A stretch of DNA of 41,973 nt from IMG/VR virus record IMGVR_UViG_3300020220_003380, positions 1 through 41,973 of that record. The stretch is one strand, 5' to 3'. Under the pieces are notes generated by a model. It searched no databases. It saw only the letters and a program-made list of their open reading frames with translations, and was not told the origin of the DNA. The stretch is from a virus. Position 1 is the stretch's first letter; every line of letters starts with the position of its first letter. The position numbers and the translations under genes are program-made. Positions 4,809-24,929 of the stretch are shown in pieces.

Positions 4809-4817
4809 CATAAATAC
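4809..4817 (+). promoter_or_regulatory. Late-type promoter motif CATAAATAC before the tail-fibre operon
   Basis: CATAAATAC lies 19 nt before the ATG of the first large structural gene, in a 57-nt intergenic stretch that also holds AGGA at 4827-4830 as ribosome binding site. Structural genes in T4-like phages are expressed late from TATAAATA-type boxes, so both sequence and position fit. Confidence 0.65.
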
Positions 4818-4836: not shown

Positions 4837-7233
4837 ATGGTACAACAAGTTATTGATGTTGGCGCTGCTGCTAGTGATGGCACAGGTGATCCGTTACGCG
4901 ATGCATTCACCAAAATTAATGAAAATTTTGATGAGCTTTACAGCACTGTAGATAACGAAGGTTTGACCTACGGTAACGTTGCTTGCAATGTCAGCGGAAT
5001 CACCTTTAATGTTAGCCGTTACACAGAAAGTTATGCAGCAGCACCTGTGCTACGGGGCACCGGGCAAACGGTTGGCAATGTGTATGTTATCCAAGGCAAT
5101 GTTCTGGGAGGTACAACGCCATTAAATGATGTTTTACTAACAGTGACTACTCTAGCAAATGTCACTGTGGGCAATATTGCTACAGTGTCGGTTGTGGGTG
5201 TGCCTGTGGCTCCTGTACTTAGAGTAAATGGTTTAACAGGCAATGTTACACTCACTGTCAACAATATCACTGAGGCTGCCAGCAAAGCCTATGTCAATGC
5301 TGCCATATCTGCTAATCTTGCAAATGTTACAGGATCAATAACCGATTCATTACGTGCTAATATTACTGCTGCCAATGCGGCTATTGCAACTAATACCAAC
5401 AGAGTGGCAGCTGCCAACGTAGAAATAAATGCACTAAGAGCGAACATTACAGCGGCAAATTTGGTGATAGCTGCGATAAACACTTCAAATGTTGATGCTA
5501 TAAATGCCAACGTTATGGCCGCAAACGCTCGCATTGTGGTAATTGATGCCAATCTTGGTACAAAATCTACACTGATAACCAATTTACAAAGTAACACTGG
5601 TATATTAGCTGCTTACATAGACACAACCAACAGCAACGTTTCTGCAGCAAACACCGCTATTGTAACTAATACCAACAGAGTGGCTGCTGCCAACGTAGAA
5701 ATAAATGCATTGAGAGCAAATATAACTGCTGCCAACGCTGTAATTGCTTCCATTAGTGTGGCAGCTATCAATGCCAATGTGTCTGCTGCAAATGCAGCCA
5801 TAATTACACTTCAATCTAATGCAGCATCTCAAGCATTGGATTTGGACAGTCTCTTAGGCAACGCTGCCACTCAAGGCGCATCTATTAATGATCTTGTTGC
5901 TAATTCAGCCACACAGGCTGTGGCTATCAATACCATTAACGCAAATATTGGTGCGTACCAAATTTATGCTAATGCCAATGCTGCAACTCAATCCACAACA
6001 ATTACGTCTATTAATGCCAATGTAACAGCAGCTAATGTAAACATAACTTCATTACTAGCTAATGCTTCTATCCAAGCTTTAGAATTAGATAATTTACAAA
6101 GTAATGCTCAGGCACAACAAGGAAATATAATTTCTTTACAATCAAATGCTACCACACAAGCATCACAGATTGACGTAATAAATGCAAATGTTTTGGCGGC
6201 AAACACCAACATCACAACCTTGACAGCTGACAGTGCCGGTCAGGCTGTACAGCTAGATTTGTTAAATGCAAATTTAACAGCGGCCAACTTGAATATCACA
6301 ACATTGACATCAAATGCAGCAGTTCAGGCATTAGATATACAAAATTTATATGCAAATATAAATTTGTATCTCAGCAATGTTGCTTCATCAGACGCAAATA
6401 TTTCTGCGGCTAATGCTAGAATAATCTTGATTGATGCCAACTTGGGCAGTACAAATACTAATGTCTCCTCGTTACAAAGCAATGCTGCCAGTCAGGCAGT
6501 TCAGATTAATTTGTTAAACGCTAATTTAATTGCCGCTAATACCAATATCAACAATAGTGCCAACCTTAGTGGTGCTGTGTTTAACGGCAATGTTCAAGCG
6601 GCGTTTTTGTTAGCCAATGCCAACGTCAAAATAGGATCCACACTTGAAGTAGGTAATGTCAATCCTATCAACTACCCAGGTCTGGGCGGTGTGTTTGTAG
6701 GAAATGTTGATAGTATTTATCAGGTGGTCATACAAAACATTAATACTGGATCAAGCGCCTCAGGAGACTTTGTAATCACTGCCGATGATGGCAACGACAG
6801 TGACAAATATCTCAACATAGGTATAAACTCAAGTAATTTTAGTGGAAATTTTGCGCCACCAACTGGAGATACTGGTTTAAATGAAGCTCCTTACGATGGA
6901 TATTTCAATGTGATTGGTGGTAACGCCATAGTGAGAACAAACAGTAATGTGTTCTTGGTAGCTAATACTTCGTTGGTTGGTATCAATAAAGACGGAAATT
7001 TTGAACTTTTTAATTGTAATCTAACATTTATAGATGGCTCAACACAAAGCACTGCAATTGCTGATGTTCCGGATTTATTCGCCAATATTGGCGCACTTGC
7101 ATTGTTCCAATCAAATATTCTGGGTAATGCAAGTTATACACCAAACAATGCAGCAAATTACAACGGCACAATTACTAACATTCAACAGGCTTTGGACCAA
7201 TTGGCGGCTAGATTACAAGCCTTAGGTGGCTAA
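4837..7233 (+). CDS. Tail-fibre-like structural protein with coiled-coil repeats
   Basis: 798 residues. The N-terminus VIDVGAAASDGTGDPLRDAF and then FTKINENFDELY is a motif shared with the next gene and with tail-fibre-like proteins of T4-type aquatic phages. Residues about 150-590 are a long series of degenerate repeats (INANV, ANAAI, TLQSNA, SQALDLD) with a heptad-like pattern, predicted to form a trimeric coiled-coil shaft; two copies of a TNRVAAANVEINALRANITA unit are 92 codons apart. The C-terminal 200 residues are globular and beta-rich. It probably forms a virion fibre; receptor unknown. Confidence 0.75.
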   Translation: MVQQVIDVGAAASDGTGDPLRDAFTKINENFDELYSTVDNEGLTYGNVACNVSGITFNVSRYTESYAAAPVLRGTGQTVGNVYVIQGNVLGGTTPLNDVLLTVTTLANVTVGNIATVSVVGVPVAPVLRVNGLTGNVTLTVNNITEAASKAYVNAAISANLANVTGSITDSLRANITAANAAIATNTNRVAAANVEINALRANITAANLVIAAINTSNVDAINANVMAANARIVVIDANLGTKSTLITNLQSNTGILAAYIDTTNSNVSAANTAIVTNTNRVAAANVEINALRANITAANAVIASISVAAINANVSAANAAIITLQSNAASQALDLDSLLGNAATQGASINDLVANSATQAVAINTINANIGAYQIYANANAATQSTTITSINANVTAANVNITSLLANASIQALELDNLQSNAQAQQGNIISLQSNATTQASQIDVINANVLAANTNITTLTADSAGQAVQLDLLNANLTAANLNITTLTSNAAVQALDIQNLYANINLYLSNVASSDANISAANARIILIDANLGSTNTNVSSLQSNAASQAVQINLLNANLIAANTNINNSANLSGAVFNGNVQAAFLLANANVKIGSTLEVGNVNPINYPGLGGVFVGNVDSIYQVVIQNINTGSSASGDFVITADDGNDSDKYLNIGINSSNFSGNFAPPTGDTGLNEAPYDGYFNVIGGNAIVRTNSNVFLVANTSLVGINKDGNFELFNCNLTFIDGSTQSTAIADVPDLFANIGALALFQSNILGNASYTPNNAANYNGTITNIQQALDQLAARLQALGG
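5388..5709 (+). repeat. 46-bp near-perfect direct repeat inside the fibre gene
   Basis: Copies at 5388-5433 and 5664-5709 differ at one base out of 46 and are 276 bp (92 codons) apart, so the frame is kept. Flanking protein repeats are far more degenerate than this pair, which suggests a recent duplication or gene conversion within the shaft. Such repeats can lengthen or shorten the fibre by recombination. Confidence 0.8.
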
Positions 7234-7250
7234 TTACAAGTGGAATAAAA

Positions 7251-9275
7251 ATGGCAATTAATACAATCAATATTGGAGCAGTAGCAAATGATGGAACAGG
7301 CAATCCAATTAGGACCGCGTTTGACACTGTTAACAAAAATTTTCAATTCGTACAAGGCGGATTGTTTGCAGGCACCGAATCATCAATTATAAGTGCTGTA
7401 AGTGTAACTGGTGGATATTTGTACTCTAACAGTTATGTTTATGCCACAACATATGTAAATGCCGGCAGCATAGTTTCTAACACTGTGACCAGTAACGGTA
7501 ATCTTTTCGTAAGTCAAAATGGTGCCTACATTGTAGGTAATGTGAATATTGTTGGTAATTTAAATGTAACCGGGTCACAGCAGGCATCGCAGTCAAGTAA
7601 TTCTACTGCACCGATCATCTTGATTCACTCCAATGCAGCACCGTATACTACCAATGACGGTAAAGACATTGGTTTAGAATGGCAATACTTTAAAACCTCA
7701 GATAGATATGCCTTTTTGGGTTGGCAAAACAGTTCGGCGAGTTTGGTCTATATGGACAATATCACCGATACTGCCAATGTAATCACAGACGGTACGTTTG
7801 GTAATGTACAATTTGGGCAACTGCTTTTGAGTAATACTACTGCCGCCACAAGTAATGTCACTGGTGCTCTGCAAGTAAAAGGCGGTGTTGGTATTCTTGG
7901 AAATTTGCACGCTACCCGTGCCAACGTTGGTAACCTATCAGTTACTGGTTATCACGTAGGTAATATGAATTTTGCCGGTGGCGACACCATTTATATAAAT
8001 GGCAGTCCGGTGGTGACCAGTGCAACTTCATTCAACGGTGGCACAGTTGGGCTGACCACTACTTTTGCTTGTACCACTCCTTCTACCAGCACAATTACTG
8101 GAGCAGTGATTGTTACAGGAGGGCTAGGTATAAGCGGCAATCTGTATGCTGCCAACATCTATGTGCCTGCCGGTGGTGGTGTTCAAGGTAACATTTTTGG
8201 TAACGTTACCATGCCAGCACAACCATTAATAACCAGTTTAGGCACTTTGACCACTCTAACATTATCTGGACAGTTGAATACCAACGATATAAGTCCCAAT
8301 ACCAATAACACCTATTCTTTAGGCACAGCTACCAATGATAGATTTGTAAAATTATGGGTATTCGACATAGACATGAGTGGCACCATGACTGGTGGTACAG
8401 TGAATAGTACCGGCGGCACTCATACTGGCAACATTGCTATCAACACCTCTGGTGCAGCAGCAATAACAACCAATACGGCAGTGGCTGAATTGTTTAACAC
8501 TAATGCAACTACGATAAGAATTGGCGCAGATGGCACAACAGAATTCGACAGTAACACGCAATCGACCAGTACCACAACAGGTGCGGTAGTAATACAAGGC
8601 GGCCTAGGTGTAGCTACCGGTCAAGTCCAAATTGGAGGAGCCGGTGGTAGAAGTATTACTACTACAACCGGCAATGTGGTATTTGATGGTAATACGCCAT
8701 CAACGTCGACCACTACTGGGCAATTGGTTGTACAAGGCGGTGTGGCAATTTCAACTGGTAATCTATGGATAGCAGGATCTGGTGGATATGCTATTGTTGC
8801 CACTGGTAATATTGTTCCAAGTTCAAACATTGCTGTAACAAACAACCTAGGATCCGACACAGCGTGGTGGAATAATTTTTATGGTGTGGCGGTACAGGCT
8901 TTATATGCCGACCTTGCAGAAAAATACATTGCTGATTCCAACTATGCACCCGGGACTGTTGTGGTATTTGGTGGCGATCAGGAAATCACTGTTACTGAAA
9001 CATTTGCTGATGTACGTGTAGCAGGTGTAATTTCCAGTAACCCGGCCTATCTCATGAATGCAGCAGCGTCAGGTTTACCCGTGGCATTGCGAGGACGAGT
9101 TCCAGTACAAGTGTTAGGTGCGGTGTCAAAAGGTGATCTATTAGTAACATCTAAACAAGCAGGATTTGCTCAAAGCATAGGACAAAATAACAGCTATGGT
9201 GCAGCAGTGTTTGCAAAAAGTCTTACTACCAATGGCAGCAATGGCAGTAAAATAATTGAAGCGGTAATAATATAA
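7251..9275 (+). CDS. Tail-fibre-like structural protein with conserved C-terminal domain
   Basis: 674 residues. It starts with the same module as the preceding gene (INIGAVANDGTGNPIRTAFD, then NKNFQFV). The middle has repeated blocks of the type STSTTTGAVVIQGGLGVATG (residues about 195, 275, 430, 480), each probably a beta-structured fibre repeat. The last 140 residues (YADLAEKYIADSNYAPGTVV ... GVISSNPAYLMN ... GRVPVQVLGAVSKGDLLVTS) form a conserved terminal domain common in fibres of aquatic phages. GTGGA at 7240-7244 serves as a weak ribosome binding site. A distal fibre or adhesin role is inferred. Confidence 0.75.
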   Translation: MAINTINIGAVANDGTGNPIRTAFDTVNKNFQFVQGGLFAGTESSIISAVSVTGGYLYSNSYVYATTYVNAGSIVSNTVTSNGNLFVSQNGAYIVGNVNIVGNLNVTGSQQASQSSNSTAPIILIHSNAAPYTTNDGKDIGLEWQYFKTSDRYAFLGWQNSSASLVYMDNITDTANVITDGTFGNVQFGQLLLSNTTAATSNVTGALQVKGGVGILGNLHATRANVGNLSVTGYHVGNMNFAGGDTIYINGSPVVTSATSFNGGTVGLTTTFACTTPSTSTITGAVIVTGGLGISGNLYAANIYVPAGGGVQGNIFGNVTMPAQPLITSLGTLTTLTLSGQLNTNDISPNTNNTYSLGTATNDRFVKLWVFDIDMSGTMTGGTVNSTGGTHTGNIAINTSGAAAITTNTAVAELFNTNATTIRIGADGTTEFDSNTQSTSTTTGAVVIQGGLGVATGQVQIGGAGGRSITTTTGNVVFDGNTPSTSTTTGQLVVQGGVAISTGNLWIAGSGGYAIVATGNIVPSSNIAVTNNLGSDTAWWNNFYGVAVQALYADLAEKYIADSNYAPGTVVVFGGDQEITVTETFADVRVAGVISSNPAYLMNAAASGLPVALRGRVPVQVLGAVSKGDLLVTSKQAGFAQSIGQNNSYGAAVFAKSLTTNGSNGSKIIEAVII

Positions 9276-9276
9276 T

Positions 9277-12200
9277 ATGAGCGTGGTTTCGTGGGTAACA
9301 CCAAGAGGTGATTTAGGCACTGTTCCAGAAAATTTATATTATAGTTTTCAATTGGAAGCAGTAGACAGCGATGAGCAACAGTTATTTTACAGTTTTATTA
9401 GTGGCCAGTTGCCCGGAGGAATGTATGTTACTCGTACAGGAGAATTACGCGGAATTCCCACAGTACTGAGTTCGGTAAATCAAACTTCTGTTAATACATT
9501 TACAGTAAGAGCAACCAATCCAAACGGGAATGTAGCAGATAGATCTTTTAGCATGGCTGTAAGTAACATAAACGGTCCGCAAATTACGCCACGACCTGAT
9601 CTAATTGGAGCATGGTTTGATGGTAACTTTTTAGATTACAGTTTCAACAGTGTTAACGATAATCGCAATGCGACACAAACATGGAGTATTATCGAAGGTG
9701 ATATTCCTCCAGGAACCACCTTTACATCAGAAGGTAGATTGTATGGTTACGTTGATATAGTTGCTGAAAATATCGATGAACTGGGTTTTGAAGCAGCACC
9801 TGTTGAAGCAGTTATTTTTGATGCTTTGCCATTAAGCACTGACAAATATTACAATTTTACTATTCAGGTTACTGATGACTTTAAAGTAGACACTTTGAAT
9901 GTAAGATTATTGATTTTAAGTAAAGGCAATTACACTGCCGACAACGATTTGACAGTAATAAACAATACATTTATTACTGTAGATGCTGATAACAAATATA
10001 GACCGATTATACTCAATAATCCAGATTCATTACCAGTCTTGGTCTCCGGTAGTACCTTTGCCTATAGATTTGTGGCATATGATCCTGAGGACGAAGATGT
10101 GTCATGGAAAATTGACGAATTGGCATTCAGTGGCATAGACGAACTTGATGCCGCGGACAGTCAGACCATTACTGGCAATGGAACAGTAGGACCTTACACC
10201 CTTGATTTTGCTCCCGCAAATGCAGCCAGAATTGTGGTACAGGTAAATGGAGTATTATATACTGCCTACACTGATTACAATACCGCCTCATTGCAATTGA
10301 CATTTACGTCTTTGGCACCGTCAAGTGCTGATACAATTTTTGTTCAGTTTATCAGCACAACAACTGGATATGACAGTATCTTGTTTGACCAAGGAGCAAG
10401 TGGTTTTCCTTCAGGTATAGAGATTAACGCGGACACCGGTTGGGCGATTGGAACGCTTCCTAGCCAAACCGATGATTTTACCACATACAGTTTTACAGTA
10501 TATGCCTATAGAACAGCTTTCCCCGACGCAGAAAGTGATGGAGTAACATTTTCACTAACTGTCAAACGAACTCTCAATGAGGAAATTGTTTGGATCACAC
10601 CATTTGATCTAGGTATTATAGATAACGGTGCAGTAAGTGAAATAGCAATTGAAGCCTATAACACATTAGATAAAGAATTACAATACAGTTTGATTTATGC
10701 TCCATTCAGAAAAATTCCGCAAGGATTGAAGTTTTTACGAAGTGGTAGAATGATCGGGCGTACTACTTTTAGGTACTTTAGTTTGGATGGACAAGTTGCT
10801 CAGTTGAATGTAACTTCAACTGAGGATTTGGTGGTAGGCATGACAGTGCAAGGAGTAGGTGTTGCTGCAGGTTGTAAAATTACTGCAATAGTTGACTCAA
10901 ACACCATTGAAGTGAGTCCAGCAATCTATATGACACAAGGTACTATATTAGTATTTTCGAATGACACTATTCAAAAAGCAATAAGCACTACCAGTAATGC
11001 TATTAGTACCGCAATAGATAGTGGTACTACTACGTTTGATCAACAGTGCGGATTTACCGTACGAGCCACTGCTGTAGATGGTTCAATCACATCAACGCAA
11101 TCATTTACAATACTGGTTCGGCCACGAAATTTATCTCCATACGAAAATGTATATTTAAAAGCGTTGCCTAGTTATACACAAAGATTAAGCTGGGACAACA
11201 CGATCAAAGATCAAACCATCTTTCCTCCTGAATTGATATACCGACCCGATGACAGTTATTTTGGGGTCCAAGGCACGTTAAAATCTTTATTTTTGTCAGG
11301 GCTCAACCCTGTAACAGCAGAAACTTTTGTCAGTGCGATAGCAAGAAATCACTATTTCAAAACTATAAATTTTGGAGAAATAAAAACAGCCAGGGCAGTA
11401 AATTCAGATGGTACTGTGGGATACGAAATAGTATATGTTGATTTGATAGATACTCAATCCTTTGACACCAGTGGTCCACCGTTAGAAATTGTACTTGACT
11501 TGGCCAATAACTTTTTATTTCAAAATCAATTTTACAATATTATCTATCCTAACAGTTTCGGTAATATGCAAAAACGTTTGGAAAATGGAATTGGTTACAC
11601 GAATAGAAGCACGTTGCCAAGATGGATGACTAGCGTTCAAGAGGACGGGAATGTACTAGGCTTAATAAGATGTGTGGTATTGGCATATACTAAGCCCGGT
11701 GCATCAAAACTTATTTCTTATAGATTACAAAATAGCGAATTTGAAATCAATCAAATTCCATTCGTTGCAGATAGATATCAATGGGATAATTATTTGTCAA
11801 GATTTTACAACATAGACACAAACAGTTTTGAACCTAGTGTACCTACTACATTCGACAAATATCCAAACTTAGCATCTGGTTCGGCACTTGTTGACACAAT
11901 TATAGTAACGTCAGTAACCAATGCAAATGTAGTAACAATACCAAATGATATCAACGTAGGATATGGTTGGAGATTTAGCAGTATAGATGACAGTTCAACT
12001 ATACCCGATTCAACTTTTATAGCTAACTTGAATCTTGCCGGAAATGTATTGACATTATCAAGCGAAATCACTGCAACAGCAGGTTCTGCAATAAGAATAA
12101 ATGGCGAGGCATTTGTGGACTACGCAGTGAGCACCAGTTTTGATAGCATAGATGGGGAAAATTTACAAACAGTGAGGTCCTCACTAATTGTCGACGGAAT

Positions 12201-12807
12201 TGGCAATTTCTTAGAGGGAGAAAAAATAATTTTTGCAAAACAAAGCGGTTATGGCGGAATCAATGACGGATGGATAACTGCATTAGGTAATACCATTCCA
12301 GGTTACTTGGACAAAGTGGGAAATTATAGTACCATAAATCAACAAGGCGGGGTTTGGCAAATAACTTGGGAAGAGTTCCCTGATGTGGGACTTGATGACG
12401 ATTTAGTAGGATTTGACGAAGCAAGCGAAGTTTTAACTTTTAGTCATTTTGATCAGGGTGACGATGCTGAAGTAACTCTAATTTTTGATCAGGAAATAAT
12501 TTTAGATCAACTTGTAAAAGTACGCACAGGTGATACCTATACTATAACCACTTTACAGTATAGAGTGGATCCAGGAACAGCCACTCCAAGTTATTATGTG
12601 GCTACTTTTGCGACTGGATTAGAGCGTACTGCAGAAACCACTTTTGATGGTGGAACATGTATCATGCGCGAAAGGTTTGAGGCCGGACATGAGGCCGGAC
12701 AATCAGTGGCTGCAGGGACCACATTTAGTAGCAATCAAGATATCTGGATCATTCCTGAAACACTAGATAAATATATTAAATTCCCACAAACTGGAGTATT
12801 TGTATAA
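9277..12807 (+). CDS. Very large Ig-like-domain virion protein (baseplate or fibre adhesin)
   Basis: 1176 residues. It contains several putative Ig-fold (He_PIG or cadherin-like) units: residues 1-110 (FQLEAVDSDEQQLFYSFISG, then LPGGMYVTRTGELRGIPT), about 115-215, 245-430 and 440-590. A phage beta-sandwich unit (GNGTVGPYTLDFAPANAARI, VNGVLYTAYTDY) is inserted near residue 300. The C-terminal half has no family I can name. No signal peptide. It sits between two fibre-like genes, one nucleotide after the former and directly joined to the next, so a late structural operon is likely. It may link fibres to the baseplate or bind cells. Confidence 0.7.
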   Translation: MSVVSWVTPRGDLGTVPENLYYSFQLEAVDSDEQQLFYSFISGQLPGGMYVTRTGELRGIPTVLSSVNQTSVNTFTVRATNPNGNVADRSFSMAVSNINGPQITPRPDLIGAWFDGNFLDYSFNSVNDNRNATQTWSIIEGDIPPGTTFTSEGRLYGYVDIVAENIDELGFEAAPVEAVIFDALPLSTDKYYNFTIQVTDDFKVDTLNVRLLILSKGNYTADNDLTVINNTFITVDADNKYRPIILNNPDSLPVLVSGSTFAYRFVAYDPEDEDVSWKIDELAFSGIDELDAADSQTITGNGTVGPYTLDFAPANAARIVVQVNGVLYTAYTDYNTASLQLTFTSLAPSSADTIFVQFISTTTGYDSILFDQGASGFPSGIEINADTGWAIGTLPSQTDDFTTYSFTVYAYRTAFPDAESDGVTFSLTVKRTLNEEIVWITPFDLGIIDNGAVSEIAIEAYNTLDKELQYSLIYAPFRKIPQGLKFLRSGRMIGRTTFRYFSLDGQVAQLNVTSTEDLVVGMTVQGVGVAAGCKITAIVDSNTIEVSPAIYMTQGTILVFSNDTIQKAISTTSNAISTAIDSGTTTFDQQCGFTVRATAVDGSITSTQSFTILVRPRNLSPYENVYLKALPSYTQRLSWDNTIKDQTIFPPELIYRPDDSYFGVQGTLKSLFLSGLNPVTAETFVSAIARNHYFKTINFGEIKTARAVNSDGTVGYEIVYVDLIDTQSFDTSGPPLEIVLDLANNFLFQNQFYNIIYPNSFGNMQKRLENGIGYTNRSTLPRWMTSVQEDGNVLGLIRCVVLAYTKPGASKLISYRLQNSEFEINQIPFVADRYQWDNYLSRFYNIDTNSFEPSVPTTFDKYPNLASGSALVDTIIVTSVTNANVVTIPNDINVGYGWRFSSIDDSSTIPDSTFIANLNLAGNVLTLSSEITATAGSAIRINGEAFVDYAVSTSFDSIDGENLQTVRSSLIVDGIGNFLEGEKIIFAKQSGYGGINDGWITALGNTIPGYLDKVGNYSTINQQGGVWQITWEEFPDVGLDDDLVGFDEASEVLTFSHFDQGDDAEVTLIFDQEIILDQLVKVRTGDTYTITTLQYRVDPGTATPSYYVATFATGLERTAETTFDGGTCIMRERFEAGHEAGQSVAAGTTFSSNQDIWIIPETLDKYIKFPQTGVFV

Positions 12808-13785
12808 ATGACAAGCCAAGTTAATCCAAACAATATTGACGGTACATTTCCTGTAGCCGGCCAAGACAATGACAGTCAAGGTTTTCGCGACAATTTCACT
12901 AATATTCGCAATAATTTTACCTTTTCTAAAGCCGAAATAGAAGATTTACAAAACAAAGTTGTGCTCAAAAGTGCTTTGTTAAATACAACGCTAAGTAACG
13001 ATTTTGCAGGTAATGCAATGGTTAATCCTGCACTAACTAGCTGGCGTGAAACCTACAATAATATAGGTAGCGTAAGTGGAAGTGTTACAATTAATTTCGT
13101 TAATGGTAATTTTCAAAAAATTACCATGTCTGGCACTACAACACTCACTTTTAGTTTTCCGGCCAACACTGGCAATCAGTATGCCAGGATTAAACTATGG
13201 GTAAGTAATCCAAGTGCCAGTTATACATTGAGTTTTCCTAACTCAATGACACTGGGCGATACTGACACTATTGCTGGATTTAGTGGTAATACTGTGTCAT
13301 TCAGTTCAGCCGAAATTAGTAACTCTACAGATTATTTCTTTGAAATCTTTACTGTAGATGGTGGCACAACATTAGGCATACGTGATTTAGGCAGAAACAG
13401 AACCAAAGCATTAAGTGGACTGCAAGTGAATGGCAATTTAACAGCAAGTGCCAACTTGATTACCAGTGCCGGAACTATCAACACAAATTACGCCTATGTA
13501 ACGCTAACCAACGATCAAAACTTTTTTGCCAACACAGGATATAATACAGTATATTTTGATACTGCAAGTAGTGACACTATCGCTAATGCACGTATTGCAT
13601 TGCCCGATACAGACGTAGATGGTAGAGAAATTACGCTTAGTTTCCTAGCACCAATTACTGCGGTTTGGGTCAACAAAGGCAATACTGCCTTGGTTAAATG
13701 GTTCCCCAATACCACTGTGAGTTCAGGTAATGTGGTAGCAAAGTTTACCTATAGTGTAACAAATTCAAATTGGTTACGTAGTTAA
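12808..13785 (+). CDS. Fibre-like structural protein
   Basis: 325 residues; the ATG follows the upstream stop without a gap. The N-terminus (PNNIDGTFPVAGQDNDSQGF, then RDNFTNIRNNF) is a variant of the same short module that opens the two earlier fibre genes, with the conserved F.NIxxNF ending. A beta-rich region follows (GSVTINFVNGNFQKITMSGT, then TLTFSFPANTGNQYARIKLW), which resembles short beta-sandwich domains in phage fibres. The C-terminus ends FTYSVTNSNWLRS. It is the last gene before the hairpin and promoter at 13801-13850, so it closes the structural operon. Confidence 0.7.
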   Translation: MTSQVNPNNIDGTFPVAGQDNDSQGFRDNFTNIRNNFTFSKAEIEDLQNKVVLKSALLNTTLSNDFAGNAMVNPALTSWRETYNNIGSVSGSVTINFVNGNFQKITMSGTTTLTFSFPANTGNQYARIKLWVSNPSASYTLSFPNSMTLGDTDTIAGFSGNTVSFSSAEISNSTDYFFEIFTVDGGTTLGIRDLGRNRTKALSGLQVNGNLTASANLITSAGTINTNYAYVTLTNDQNFFANTGYNTVYFDTASSDTIANARIALPDTDVDGREITLSFLAPITAVWVNKGNTALVKWFPNTTVSSGNVVAKFTYSVTNSNWLRS

Positions 13786-13800
13786 AATAACCAAACATTA

Positions 13801-13829
13801 TTGACTCCTGGCGTTGCATAGTTTATAAT
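13801..13829 (+). promoter_or_regulatory. Sigma70-like promoter for mazG
   Basis: TTGACT (13801-13806), 17-nt spacer, TATAAT (13824-13829). Predicted start is near 13836, which leaves a leader of about 15 nt that keeps CAGGAG (13839-13844) but lacks the 5' arm of the hairpin described in the next entry. Five of six -35 and all -10 bases match consensus. Confidence 0.82.
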
Positions 13830-13850
13830 TATGCTATCCAGGAGTTTTTT
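13804..13850 (+). terminator. Intrinsic-terminator-like hairpin overlapping the mazG promoter and ribosome binding site
   Basis: ACTCCTGG (13804-13811) pairs with CCAGGAGT (13838-13845); an inner GCATA/TATGC pairing (13816-13820 with 13830-13834) extends the structure, and T13845-13850 is a run of six T. It can end transcripts of the structural operon. In any read-through RNA the GGAG of the mazG ribosome binding site is buried in the stem, whereas RNA started at the internal promoter cannot form it. Confidence 0.7.
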
Positions 13851-14285
13851 ATGACAGTTGACTTAAACAAGTATAAAGATTTTGTTGAAGCAGTGACCAG
13901 CCAACCATCAAACGATCTTACCAGTTTTATGAACCGTTTGGACTATTTAGACGGCAACTTTGATTACAACACAGATACACATGGTCCTGATATCAACGTG
14001 CCACTACTGCTAACTGCAGCTCTAGGACTTGCAGCCGAAACAGGTGAATTTTGTGAGATTCCCAAAAAGATTTATTTTCAAGGCAAGCCATTGACTGAGG
14101 AAAATGTATTTCACATGAAACGGGAACTGGGTGATATCATGTGGTATTGGATAAATGCATGCCGCGCACTTGGTCTAGATCCAAATGACGTCATTGCGGA
14201 AAACGTAAATAAATTAAAAGCCCGATATCCAGGTGGTGCGTTTGATGTTCACTATTCTGAAAATAGGCAGGCTGGAGATTTGTAG
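13851..14285 (+). CDS. mazG: MazG-like nucleotide pyrophosphohydrolase
   Basis: 144 residues. The metal-binding EXXE...EXXD signature of the MazG/all-alpha NTP pyrophosphatase superfamily is visible: E63/E66 in AAETGEFCEI and E92/D95 in KRELGDIMWYW, followed by the helix ALGLDPNDVIAENVNKLKAR and the phage-typical tail YSENRQAGDL. Family members hydrolyse (d)NTPs or alarmone-type nucleotides to monophosphate and pyrophosphate; phage copies have been proposed to affect host nucleotide or ppGpp pools. The start is fixed by CAGGAG 6 nt upstream. Its expression is probably governed by the overlapping promoter and hairpin. Confidence 0.88.
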   Translation: MTVDLNKYKDFVEAVTSQPSNDLTSFMNRLDYLDGNFDYNTDTHGPDINVPLLLTAALGLAAETGEFCEIPKKIYFQGKPLTEENVFHMKRELGDIMWYWINACRALGLDPNDVIAENVNKLKARYPGGAFDVHYSENRQAGDL

Positions 14286-14293
14286 GAGGTAAT

Positions 14294-14530
14294 ATGCATC
14301 CATTGGTACTAGATTTATCTAATCTGTCAACTGAAGATTTGCACAAAAAATACAACGAATTGGTTCAAAAATTAAATCAGGCCTATCGATTTGGCCCAGT
14401 GAGTATTATTCCACAAATGCAAATGATTATTGAAAACTACAAATACGAAATGGATGCACGTAATAGAAAAATTATGCAAGAAATGGAAGAAAAAAACGAC
14501 AAGTTCAAAGGAATCATTGATATACAATGA
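14294..14530 (+). CDS. Small conserved helical phage protein, unknown
   Basis: 78 residues with a very good ribosome binding site (AGGAGG overlapping the mazG stop). It is mostly helical: DLSNLSTEDLHKKYNELVQK, then a Gln/Met-rich middle (IIPQMQMIIENYKYEMDAR) and a charged tail. This type of short protein with a DLS.L..EdL opening and a QMQM..E.Y..E core is common in T4-like aquatic phages; no function is known. It overlaps the next gene by ATGA. Confidence 0.65.
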   Translation: MHPLVLDLSNLSTEDLHKKYNELVQKLNQAYRFGPVSIIPQMQMIIENYKYEMDARNRKIMQEMEEKNDKFKGIIDIQ

Positions 14531-15039
14531 AGTATGATACATTGGGTAGAGCTTACGCAAATACAGATGACTTGTGCAACTTGTTATACGGCAATCCTGA
14601 TCTTGATATATCAAAAATATTAGTTACAGATCCACAGCAGTATAACGATGCAATCAAAGCCTTTTATGCAGATTTTGCTGCACTAAAATTTTATGGTGCA
14701 GATGAATTAGATATTAAAAAATTTGATTCTGCTAATCAAAGCGTGTGGCACATGCCAGAAGAATATATCAATATGGACATTGCCAATTGGTTATTAGATC
14801 AATGCAAAACACAGGAGGAGTTACAACGTGTGGGGCAAGAACTTTTGTTATTTCAAGAACGCGATCTTTTTCCATTGCTGAAACAATTGAAATATGTTGT
14901 AGACACATGGCGAAAAAATAATGTCGTGTGGGGGGTCGGTCGCGGGTCCAGTGTTGCCAGTTATGTGTTATACTTAATAGGTGTACATAGAATTAACAGC
15001 ATGTATTATGATTTAGATATTACCGAATTCTTGCGATAA
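14527..15039 (+). CDS. DnaE (family C polymerase) palm-like fragment, no catalytic aspartates
   Basis: 170 residues. The last 60 align with the palm of bacterial replicative polymerase DnaE: LKQLKYVVDTWRKNNVVWGV, then GRGSSVASYVLYLIGVHRIN and YDLDITEFLR, matching the GPGRGSGAGS...LdPl.fdLLFERFL region. The protein stops just where DnaE continues to its PDFDVDF catalytic motif, so it cannot be a polymerase by itself. The N-terminal 100 residues are not recognised. It may be a nucleotide-binding or decoy module acting on replication; that is inference. Its stop is part of a GATAAATATC late-type motif. Confidence 0.6.
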   Translation: MKYDTLGRAYANTDDLCNLLYGNPDLDISKILVTDPQQYNDAIKAFYADFAALKFYGADELDIKKFDSANQSVWHMPEEYINMDIANWLLDQCKTQEELQRVGQELLLFQERDLFPLLKQLKYVVDTWRKNNVVWGVGRGSSVASYVLYLIGVHRINSMYYDLDITEFLR

Positions 15040-23973: not shown

Positions 23974-24015
23974 AATTGTTAAACACAATTTAATACTAGA
24001 GCCCTTTATGGGCTC
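23973..24015 (+). terminator. Two hairpins after the lysis cassette
   Basis: AAATTGT (23973-23979) pairs with ACAATTT (23985-23991) across a 5-nt loop. GAGCCC (23999-24004) pairs with GGGCTC (24010-24015) across TTTAT and is followed by ATTTCATTTAT, a broken T-rich tail. The GC-rich second hairpin is the stronger candidate terminator and separates the lysis operon from the dnaJ promoter directly downstream. Confidence 0.6.
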
Positions 24016-24027
24016 ATTTCATTTATA

Positions 24028-24056
24028 TTGACTACTTACTTGGGAGGCTATATAAT
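24028..24056 (+). promoter_or_regulatory. Sigma70-like promoter giving a leaderless dnaJ mRNA
   Basis: TTGACT (24028-24033), 17-nt spacer, TATAAT (24051-24056). The predicted start falls at 24063 plus or minus one, which is the A of the dnaJ ATG, so the transcript would have no leader. The nearest Shine-Dalgarno-like sequence, GGGAGG (24042-24047), lies inside the promoter spacer, 15 nt before the ATG, and would not be present in this RNA. Confidence 0.78.
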
Positions 24057-24062
24057 AGTATT

Positions 24063-24929
24063 ATGAGTCATTATGCAACTTTAGGGGTCACTGAAAATGC
24101 CGGCCCAGATGAAATCAAAAAGGCCTATCGTAAACTTGCCAATCAACATCATCCCGACAAAGGTGGAGACACCGATATATTTCAAAAAATTCAGGCAGCA
24201 TATGATATATTAGGTGATCATGACCGTAGAGCACAATACGATGCTGAACGTAGTGGTATGGGTGGTTTTAGATTTACTGTCAATGGACAAGATGTCAACG
24301 GTGGCATACCTCCAGGAATGGAAGAAATGCTCCGTAATTTTGGATTTGCATTTGGTTCAGGATTTGCAAACCACAGAGACCCTTTGGCACATTTTAGGCA
24401 ACCAAGAAAAAACAAAGATTTACAAATCGAACTGCTAATAAGTTTGGCAAGCACCCTTGAAGAGCAAACCAAGATAATCAATGTTAAAACAACAAATGGT
24501 GACACCTATCCGATTGAAGTTAAAATTCCTCGAGGAGTTAAACCAAGTAGCACAATAAAATATCCAAACTTGGGCGACAACTTTTTTTCTTCCTTGCCAC
24601 GAGGAGATTTGTATGTGCGTATTCAAATCGAAGCAAATACTGTGTTTGGCATTGACAATTTAGATTTAATTACAGAAGCACAAATTGATTGTGTAAGAGC
24701 TATGGTAGGAGACACCTTGATTGTTCATGGCCTAGATGGCAAAAGATTTGAATTATCTTTACCTGCCGGAACTCAACCAAACACACGATTCAGAATAGCT
24801 AATCAAGGTCTTTATGCAATGAATCAAAATGTTAGGGGATCTTTAATAGTTAATGTTAAAATAAACGTTCCAATAAATTTGTCACAACAACAAATAGATT
24901 CGCTTAAAGAATTATTCTACATTCAATAA
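24063..24929 (+). CDS. DnaJ-type co-chaperone (class B, no zinc fingers)
   Basis: 288 residues. The J domain is complete: YATLGVTENAGPDEIKKAYR, HPD at 30-32, then DIFQKIQAAYDILGD. A short Gly/Phe-rich linker (GMGGFRFTVNGQDVNGGIPP) follows and then two beta-barrel substrate-binding domains (KIINVKTTNGDTYPIEVKIP, LDGKRFELSLPAGTQPNTRF). The CXXCXGXG zinc region is missing, as in CbpA/type II proteins. It would stimulate host DnaK ATPase and direct it to selected substrates. The next gene, a ClpA unfoldase, follows 8 nt later, so they probably act together. Confidence 0.9.
   Translation: MSHYATLGVTENAGPDEIKKAYRKLANQHHPDKGGDTDIFQKIQAAYDILGDHDRRAQYDAERSGMGGFRFTVNGQDVNGGIPPGMEEMLRNFGFAFGSGFANHRDPLAHFRQPRKNKDLQIELLISLASTLEEQTKIINVKTTNGDTYPIEVKIPRGVKPSSTIKYPNLGDNFFSSLPRGDLYVRIQIEANTVFGIDNLDLITEAQIDCVRAMVGDTLIVHGLDGKRFELSLPAGTQPNTRFRIANQGLYAMNQNVRGSLIVNVKINVPINLSQQQIDSLKELFYIQ

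Follow-up and report, generated by a model that had tools for sequence, protein, structure and literature searches.

The stretch of DNA analysed here (the window) is one virus record of 41,973 bases. At 13801–13850 a promoter, a hairpin and the ribosome-binding site of a mazG gene share 50 bases downstream of a run of tail genes, and the question raised by this locus is whether the origin of a transcript decides if mazG is translated from it. The gene order in the window is tail-fibre genes, the 50-base element, mazG, phrog_15348, a polymerase III NTPase domain, further genes and the clamp loader (phrog_168, a T4-like replication gene). The window is distantly similar to the jumbo phages PA5oct, Phosso and Atu_ph07; PA5oct is the cultured phage closest by clamp-loader match.

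Anatomy of the 50-base element

The following features were assigned.

4810–4816, + strand: ATAAATA, similar to a late promoter, in front of the tail block
4837–13785, + strand: tail-fibre/baseplate-like genes running into the element (partly weak matches)
12767–12773, + strand: ATAAATA, similar to a late promoter, some 1 kb ahead of the element
13801–13806, + strand: −35 box TTGACT, of which 13803–13806 lie within the 5′ arm (sequence and fold)
13803–13814, + strand: 5′ arm of the outer stem, missing from the promoter-initiated RNA (fold)
13816–13834, + strand: inner AT-rich stem-loop GCATAGTT-TAT-AATTATGC, 13816–13823 pairing with 13827–13834 (fold)
13824–13829, + strand: −10 box TATAAT, partly in the apical loop and partly in the 3′ strand of the inner AT-rich stem
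~13836, + strand: predicted transcription start, 7 nt past the −10 box
13836–13846, + strand: 3′ arm of the outer stem (fold)
13841–13844, + strand: Shine–Dalgarno sequence GGAG of mazG, in the 3′ arm, predicted to be buried in the stem in read-through RNA
13845–13850, + strand: T6 tract, the spacer to the start codon and a possible intrinsic terminator tail
13851–14285, + strand: mazG (144 aa, ATG at 13851), first gene past the element
14294–15039, + strand: second and third genes of the mazG block: a phrog_15348-like gene, then one with a DNA polymerase III alpha NTPase domain

The near-consensus promoter and the hairpin with six T before mazG, as described in the initial annotation, were all confirmed by direct reading of the sequence. 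The promoter (TTGACT-17-TATAAT) is of the sigma70 type, with 11 of 12 consensus matches and a 17-nt spacer. The outer stem joins G13803–G13811 to C13838–T13846, ACTCCTGG (13804–13811) pairing with CCAGGAGT (13838–13845),; its 5′ side includes bases 13803–13806 of the −35 box, and its 3′ side GGAG. Both boxes had been placed inside the hairpin; they overlap it, but the −35 box straddles its foot and the −10 box lies in the apical loop and inner stem. The open reading frame at 13851 was identified as MazG by matches to Pfam PF03819 (E 5e-9) and phrog_229 (E 2e-48). The upstream stop codon is located 18 nt 5′ of the 5′ arm, so that ribosomes terminating on the tail gene would not be expected to hold the stem open.

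The hairpin–promoter arrangement is not a product of chance. The fold energy is −25.2 kcal/mol compared with −12.9 ± 2.8 kcal/mol for shuffled sequences (z −4.4; 0 of 200 shuffles as good), and the pattern CTCCTGG...CCAGGAG, present once in the window, did not appear in any of 100 shuffles. The curated covariance models of Rfam gave no match in the window. Another hairpin, GAGCCC/GGGCTC (z −4.5), was observed at 23995–24065, followed by a near-consensus promoter, TTGACT-17-TATAAT; the ATG at 24063 lies 6 nt after the end of this −10 box, and the mRNA may be leaderless.

Predicted states of the two RNAs

The promoter-initiated RNA was modelled with its start 7 nt past the −10 box. The predicted accessibility of GGAG in the window is 0.0002 in the read-through RNA versus 0.38 in the RNA from 13836, in the minimum-energy fold of which GGAG lies in the unpaired 5′ end. 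Among 21 gene starts scored in the window, the mazG Shine–Dalgarno sequence is predicted to be the least accessible (0.0001), the next value being 0.08.

The supposed late transcripts were traced by the motif ATAAATA, which matches the central part of the T4 late promoter, TATAAATA; the exact TATAAATA does not occur in the window. The + strand carries 11 copies of ATAAATA and the − strand one. Nine of the 11 + strand copies are followed within 60 nt by a gene start, at a distance of 20–25 nt in several cases; those at 2955, 4810, 12767, 15036, 21352, 31292 and 37239 precede gene starts by 20–35 nt, and the copy at 15036 follows mazG and its two follower genes. In four relatives the motif is strongly enriched 12–45 nt before genes, and it is present on the same strand upstream of all 12 mazG elements having 3 kb of upstream sequence, the nearest copy being 850–1676 nt away. 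ATAAATA is likely to be the T4-like late promoter of this phage group, and with such motifs upstream a late RNA would be expected to run into the element.

The element in related phages

Viral contigs, many of them fragments, were scanned for TTGACTCCT...AGGAGTTTT and for TTGACTCCT...TATAAT...AGGAG. The latter pattern, with no folding filter, gave at least 93 distinct matches; 57 of the 93 listed pair at six or more of the eight inner positions left free by the pattern, versus about three expected at an estimated pairing chance of 0.375. The base-swapped pattern TTGACACCT...AGGTG matched 51 stretches; in most of its distinct matches the interior is poorly paired, which ties the core to the GGAG motif. 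Thirteen large contigs, the longest of 357 kb, had exactly one strict match apiece; a fourteenth, G001, which has a different stem, contained no strict match. When four relatives were scanned piecewise, the element was the lowest-energy candidate in three and the second in the fourth. Bacterial genomes gave only four strict-pattern matches. A promoter–hairpin–ribosome-site arrangement was also seen before a transposase gene in one contig (L134, 10472–11738); IS elements are known to place such an arrangement before their transposase.

After a folding filter, at least 108 distinct elements were obtained. Their first genes encode a 3′–5′ exonuclease (PF16473; 32 elements), a small protein (24), MazG (22), a phrog_15348-like protein assigned by its N-terminus (7) or other products (23), and a co-directional open reading frame precedes 102 of the 108 listed elements. 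In the element classes the predicted GGAG accessibility rises from about 0 in read-through RNA to 0.31–0.47 in promoter-initiated RNA, values that, like part of the covariation described below, lean towards the switch model through the folding filter applied to the 108-element set. The mean for 51 other promoter–gene pairs from four relatives, two of which are themselves elements, goes from 0.43 to 0.58. The small protein, which follows the element in 24 listed cases (for example L118, 1837–1995), belongs to a glycine-rich family of about 53 aa, hydrophobic by eye and with no Pfam or PHROG match, and is a putative membrane protein. Pieces of 45 aa from the exonuclease and the small protein found no match in the phage collection; the full-length exonuclease had a distant match there.

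The genes on either side of the element were also compared. In the exonuclease group, baseplate/tail genes, a head-morphogenesis-like gene and a MazG-like gene lie upstream, and the exonuclease, a clamp loader and dihydrofolate reductase lie downstream. The first gene thus varies while the boundary is kept, from which it follows that the element belongs to the position and not to MazG. A control specific to MazG was rejected on two counts, the change of first gene and the MazG-like gene upstream of the element in the exonuclease group. The earlier proposal that the element restricts MazG to early infection was conjectural and is too narrow, since the same element precedes the exonuclease, the small protein and phrog_15348; moreover, if the sigma70 promoter were to remain active late in infection, as it may, the switch would place no temporal limit on MazG. 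The phages bearing the element are a group of large bacterial viruses, and many related phages keep it at the same spot. The 170-aa gene at 14527–15039 in the window, the sole match of which is a DNA polymerase III alpha NTPase-domain stretch, adjoins mazG in relatives too.

mazG homologues were gathered by protein similarity only, and distinct leaders were tallied with no folding filter, a promoter being counted if it was sigma70-like and 3–30 nt before the ribosome site. Close homologues have two kinds of leader: among 47 distinct leaders, GGAG is occluded in 12 of 12 with a promoter versus 0 of 35 without one (Fisher 2e-11). Upstream of position 3918 in contig L040, mazG is preceded by a classical hairpin–T terminator and then by a TTGACC promoter distinct from it; the insulation is the same, reached by another route with the parts unfused. 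In the cultured jumbo phage Phosso, an unrelated-looking stem hides the GGAG and AUG of mazG (z −5.3), with a promoter less clear by eye, and in Atu_ph07 a weaker stem covers the AUG (z −2.8), with a TATATT box, assigned by eye, in its 5′ arm. Both phages have their mazG at the corresponding position: large genes, which in Atu_ph07 are tail-like, run up to it, and polymerase and clamp-loader genes follow. No such element was found in PA5oct by the pattern used. Cyanophages have no such leader, their mazG lying within or overlapping the replication operon.

Alternative readings, proposed switch and known systems

The T tract bears on the most serious alternative, namely that the element serves mainly to end transcription of the structural operon, as a compact intrinsic terminator that also accommodates a promoter, with burial of the Shine–Dalgarno sequence as a by-product; we regard this as unlikely. 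A terminator would shield the whole downstream block, T6 follows the stem in the window, and six or more T in eight positions are found in 12 of 12 mazG and 24 of 24 exonuclease elements, but a T-rich tail is present in just six of 20 small-protein and five of 14 other elements, the stem over GGAG being retained. The loop is also long for a terminator, and a terminator scan did not list the hairpin. Loss of the T tract in part of the family thus makes hiding of the ribosome site the constant function and termination an auxiliary one. The coupled termination suggested by the initial annotation is plausible in the window, with its T6 tract, but is not a conserved part of the family. In the window it is likely to be an extra, one that would extend protection to the second and third genes, unlike sequestration alone.

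Less probable still is a role at the 3′ end of the structural mRNA, as a stabiliser or as a site of processing by RNase III: the hairpin does stand at the end of the tail block, and long stems are common at the ends of such gene blocks, but this leaves unexplained the strict register of promoter, hairpin and ribosome site before several unrelated genes.

Covariation was analysed in the aligned exonuclease and small-protein elements. There, 92.7% of the cells are paired, 134 cells are doubly changed versus 44 in shuffles, and the covariation score is 0.414 versus 0.116 for shuffles and 0.023–0.084 for slid partners. In the mazG set the outer stem is 96.4% paired and follows the same trend; the inner stem is less clear and the alignment poorer. 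The CTCC/GGAG core hardly varies, as would be expected if the ribosome fixes GGAG and since the search pattern demanded this core, and by itself gives no evidence of covariation. Judging from these alignments, the base pairing is under selection, stem sequences differing between elements and compensatory changes keeping them paired. Least credible of all is a DNA operator for a phage or host repressor: an inverted repeat spans both promoter boxes, but conserved half-site sequences were not found and covariation was seen instead, the stem sequence varying widely with compensation while keeping a pairing that a protein site would not need.

The reading we prefer, to which we give a probability of roughly four in five, is that of a cis-acting switch governed by transcript origin, located where late structural transcription meets an early-type replication block. 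Late RNAs would start at upstream ATAAATA promoters and run through the tail genes into the element, where the 5′ arm, encoded by the DNA of the −35 region, would fold onto the Shine–Dalgarno sequence of the first gene and leave mazG untranslated. The hairpin with T6 may also stop part of the late transcripts, and the untranslated read-through RNA may add Rho polarity. An RNA made from the embedded sigma70-type promoter would begin at about 13836 and lack the 5′ arm; its leader would be some 15 nt long and its GGAG free. Sequestration would silence only the first gene; later genes would need termination or polarity. The observed basis is the anatomy, the covariation, the co-occurrence of promoter and hairpin, the genome position and the upstream late motifs; what we infer is where transcription starts, that read-through occurs in vivo, how strongly translation is silenced and when. 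That read-through would hide GGAG and an RNA from the inner promoter would free it had been put forward in the initial annotation, and is strongly supported by the anatomy, the covariation and the promoter co-occurrence, with 13836 as the predicted start.

With less confidence, though on balance in favour, we propose that a sigma70-type promoter, an anti-Shine–Dalgarno hairpin and often a terminator form a widespread, position-conserved element. It would insulate the early/replication block from late read-through by the logic of the T4 lysozyme gene e reversed in time, would be tied to the boundary and not to a gene, and would have been rebuilt with a different sequence in Phosso and perhaps in Atu_ph07. 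Where late and early blocks are dense and co-directional, a phage must prevent its late transcripts from yielding early proteins; the T4 cases described so far deal with the reverse situation. One 50-base cassette would, if the proposal is true, meet this need by using the same DNA as −35 region and anti-Shine–Dalgarno sequence, and finding it could serve to locate the border between early and late genes in uncultured phages.

No description of the element was found in open-licence papers. Related logic is known from IS10 and IS50, in which an inverted repeat in transcripts from outside forms a stem that covers the ribosome site of the transposase gene, and RNA from the internal start leaves out the 5′ arm. 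These guard a mobile element against host transcription, whereas the phage element would separate the late and early blocks of one genome.

In the T4 genes e, soc, 49 and I-TevI, a stem in the long transcript hides the ribosome site, and RNA from an inner promoter cannot form it (PMC3014915). The Shine–Dalgarno sequence is likewise predicted to be paired in the long transcript here, as in T4 e and I-TevI, and the element would share with e, soc and 49 the hidden ribosome site and the promoter in the 5′ strand of the stem (PMC3014915). With the homing-endonuclease hairpins of T4 I-TevI and segB and of Aeh1 mobE it would share the principle that translation depends on where the promoter lies with respect to the hairpin (PMC2988022). 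The T4 genes so controlled are all late and are carried on early or middle transcripts (PMC2988022), as are I-TevI, segB and mobE, whereas the genes following the phage element are the first of a replication block. The likeness to T4 e drawn in the initial annotation therefore holds for the logic, with the polarity reversed. A late gene, an inner T4 late promoter and silent early or middle transcripts were not found here: T4 e is a late gene on early transcripts with a T4 late promoter inside, whereas the phage element would place an early-type gene on late transcripts, silent there, with a sigma70-type promoter inside and, in many members, a T tract.
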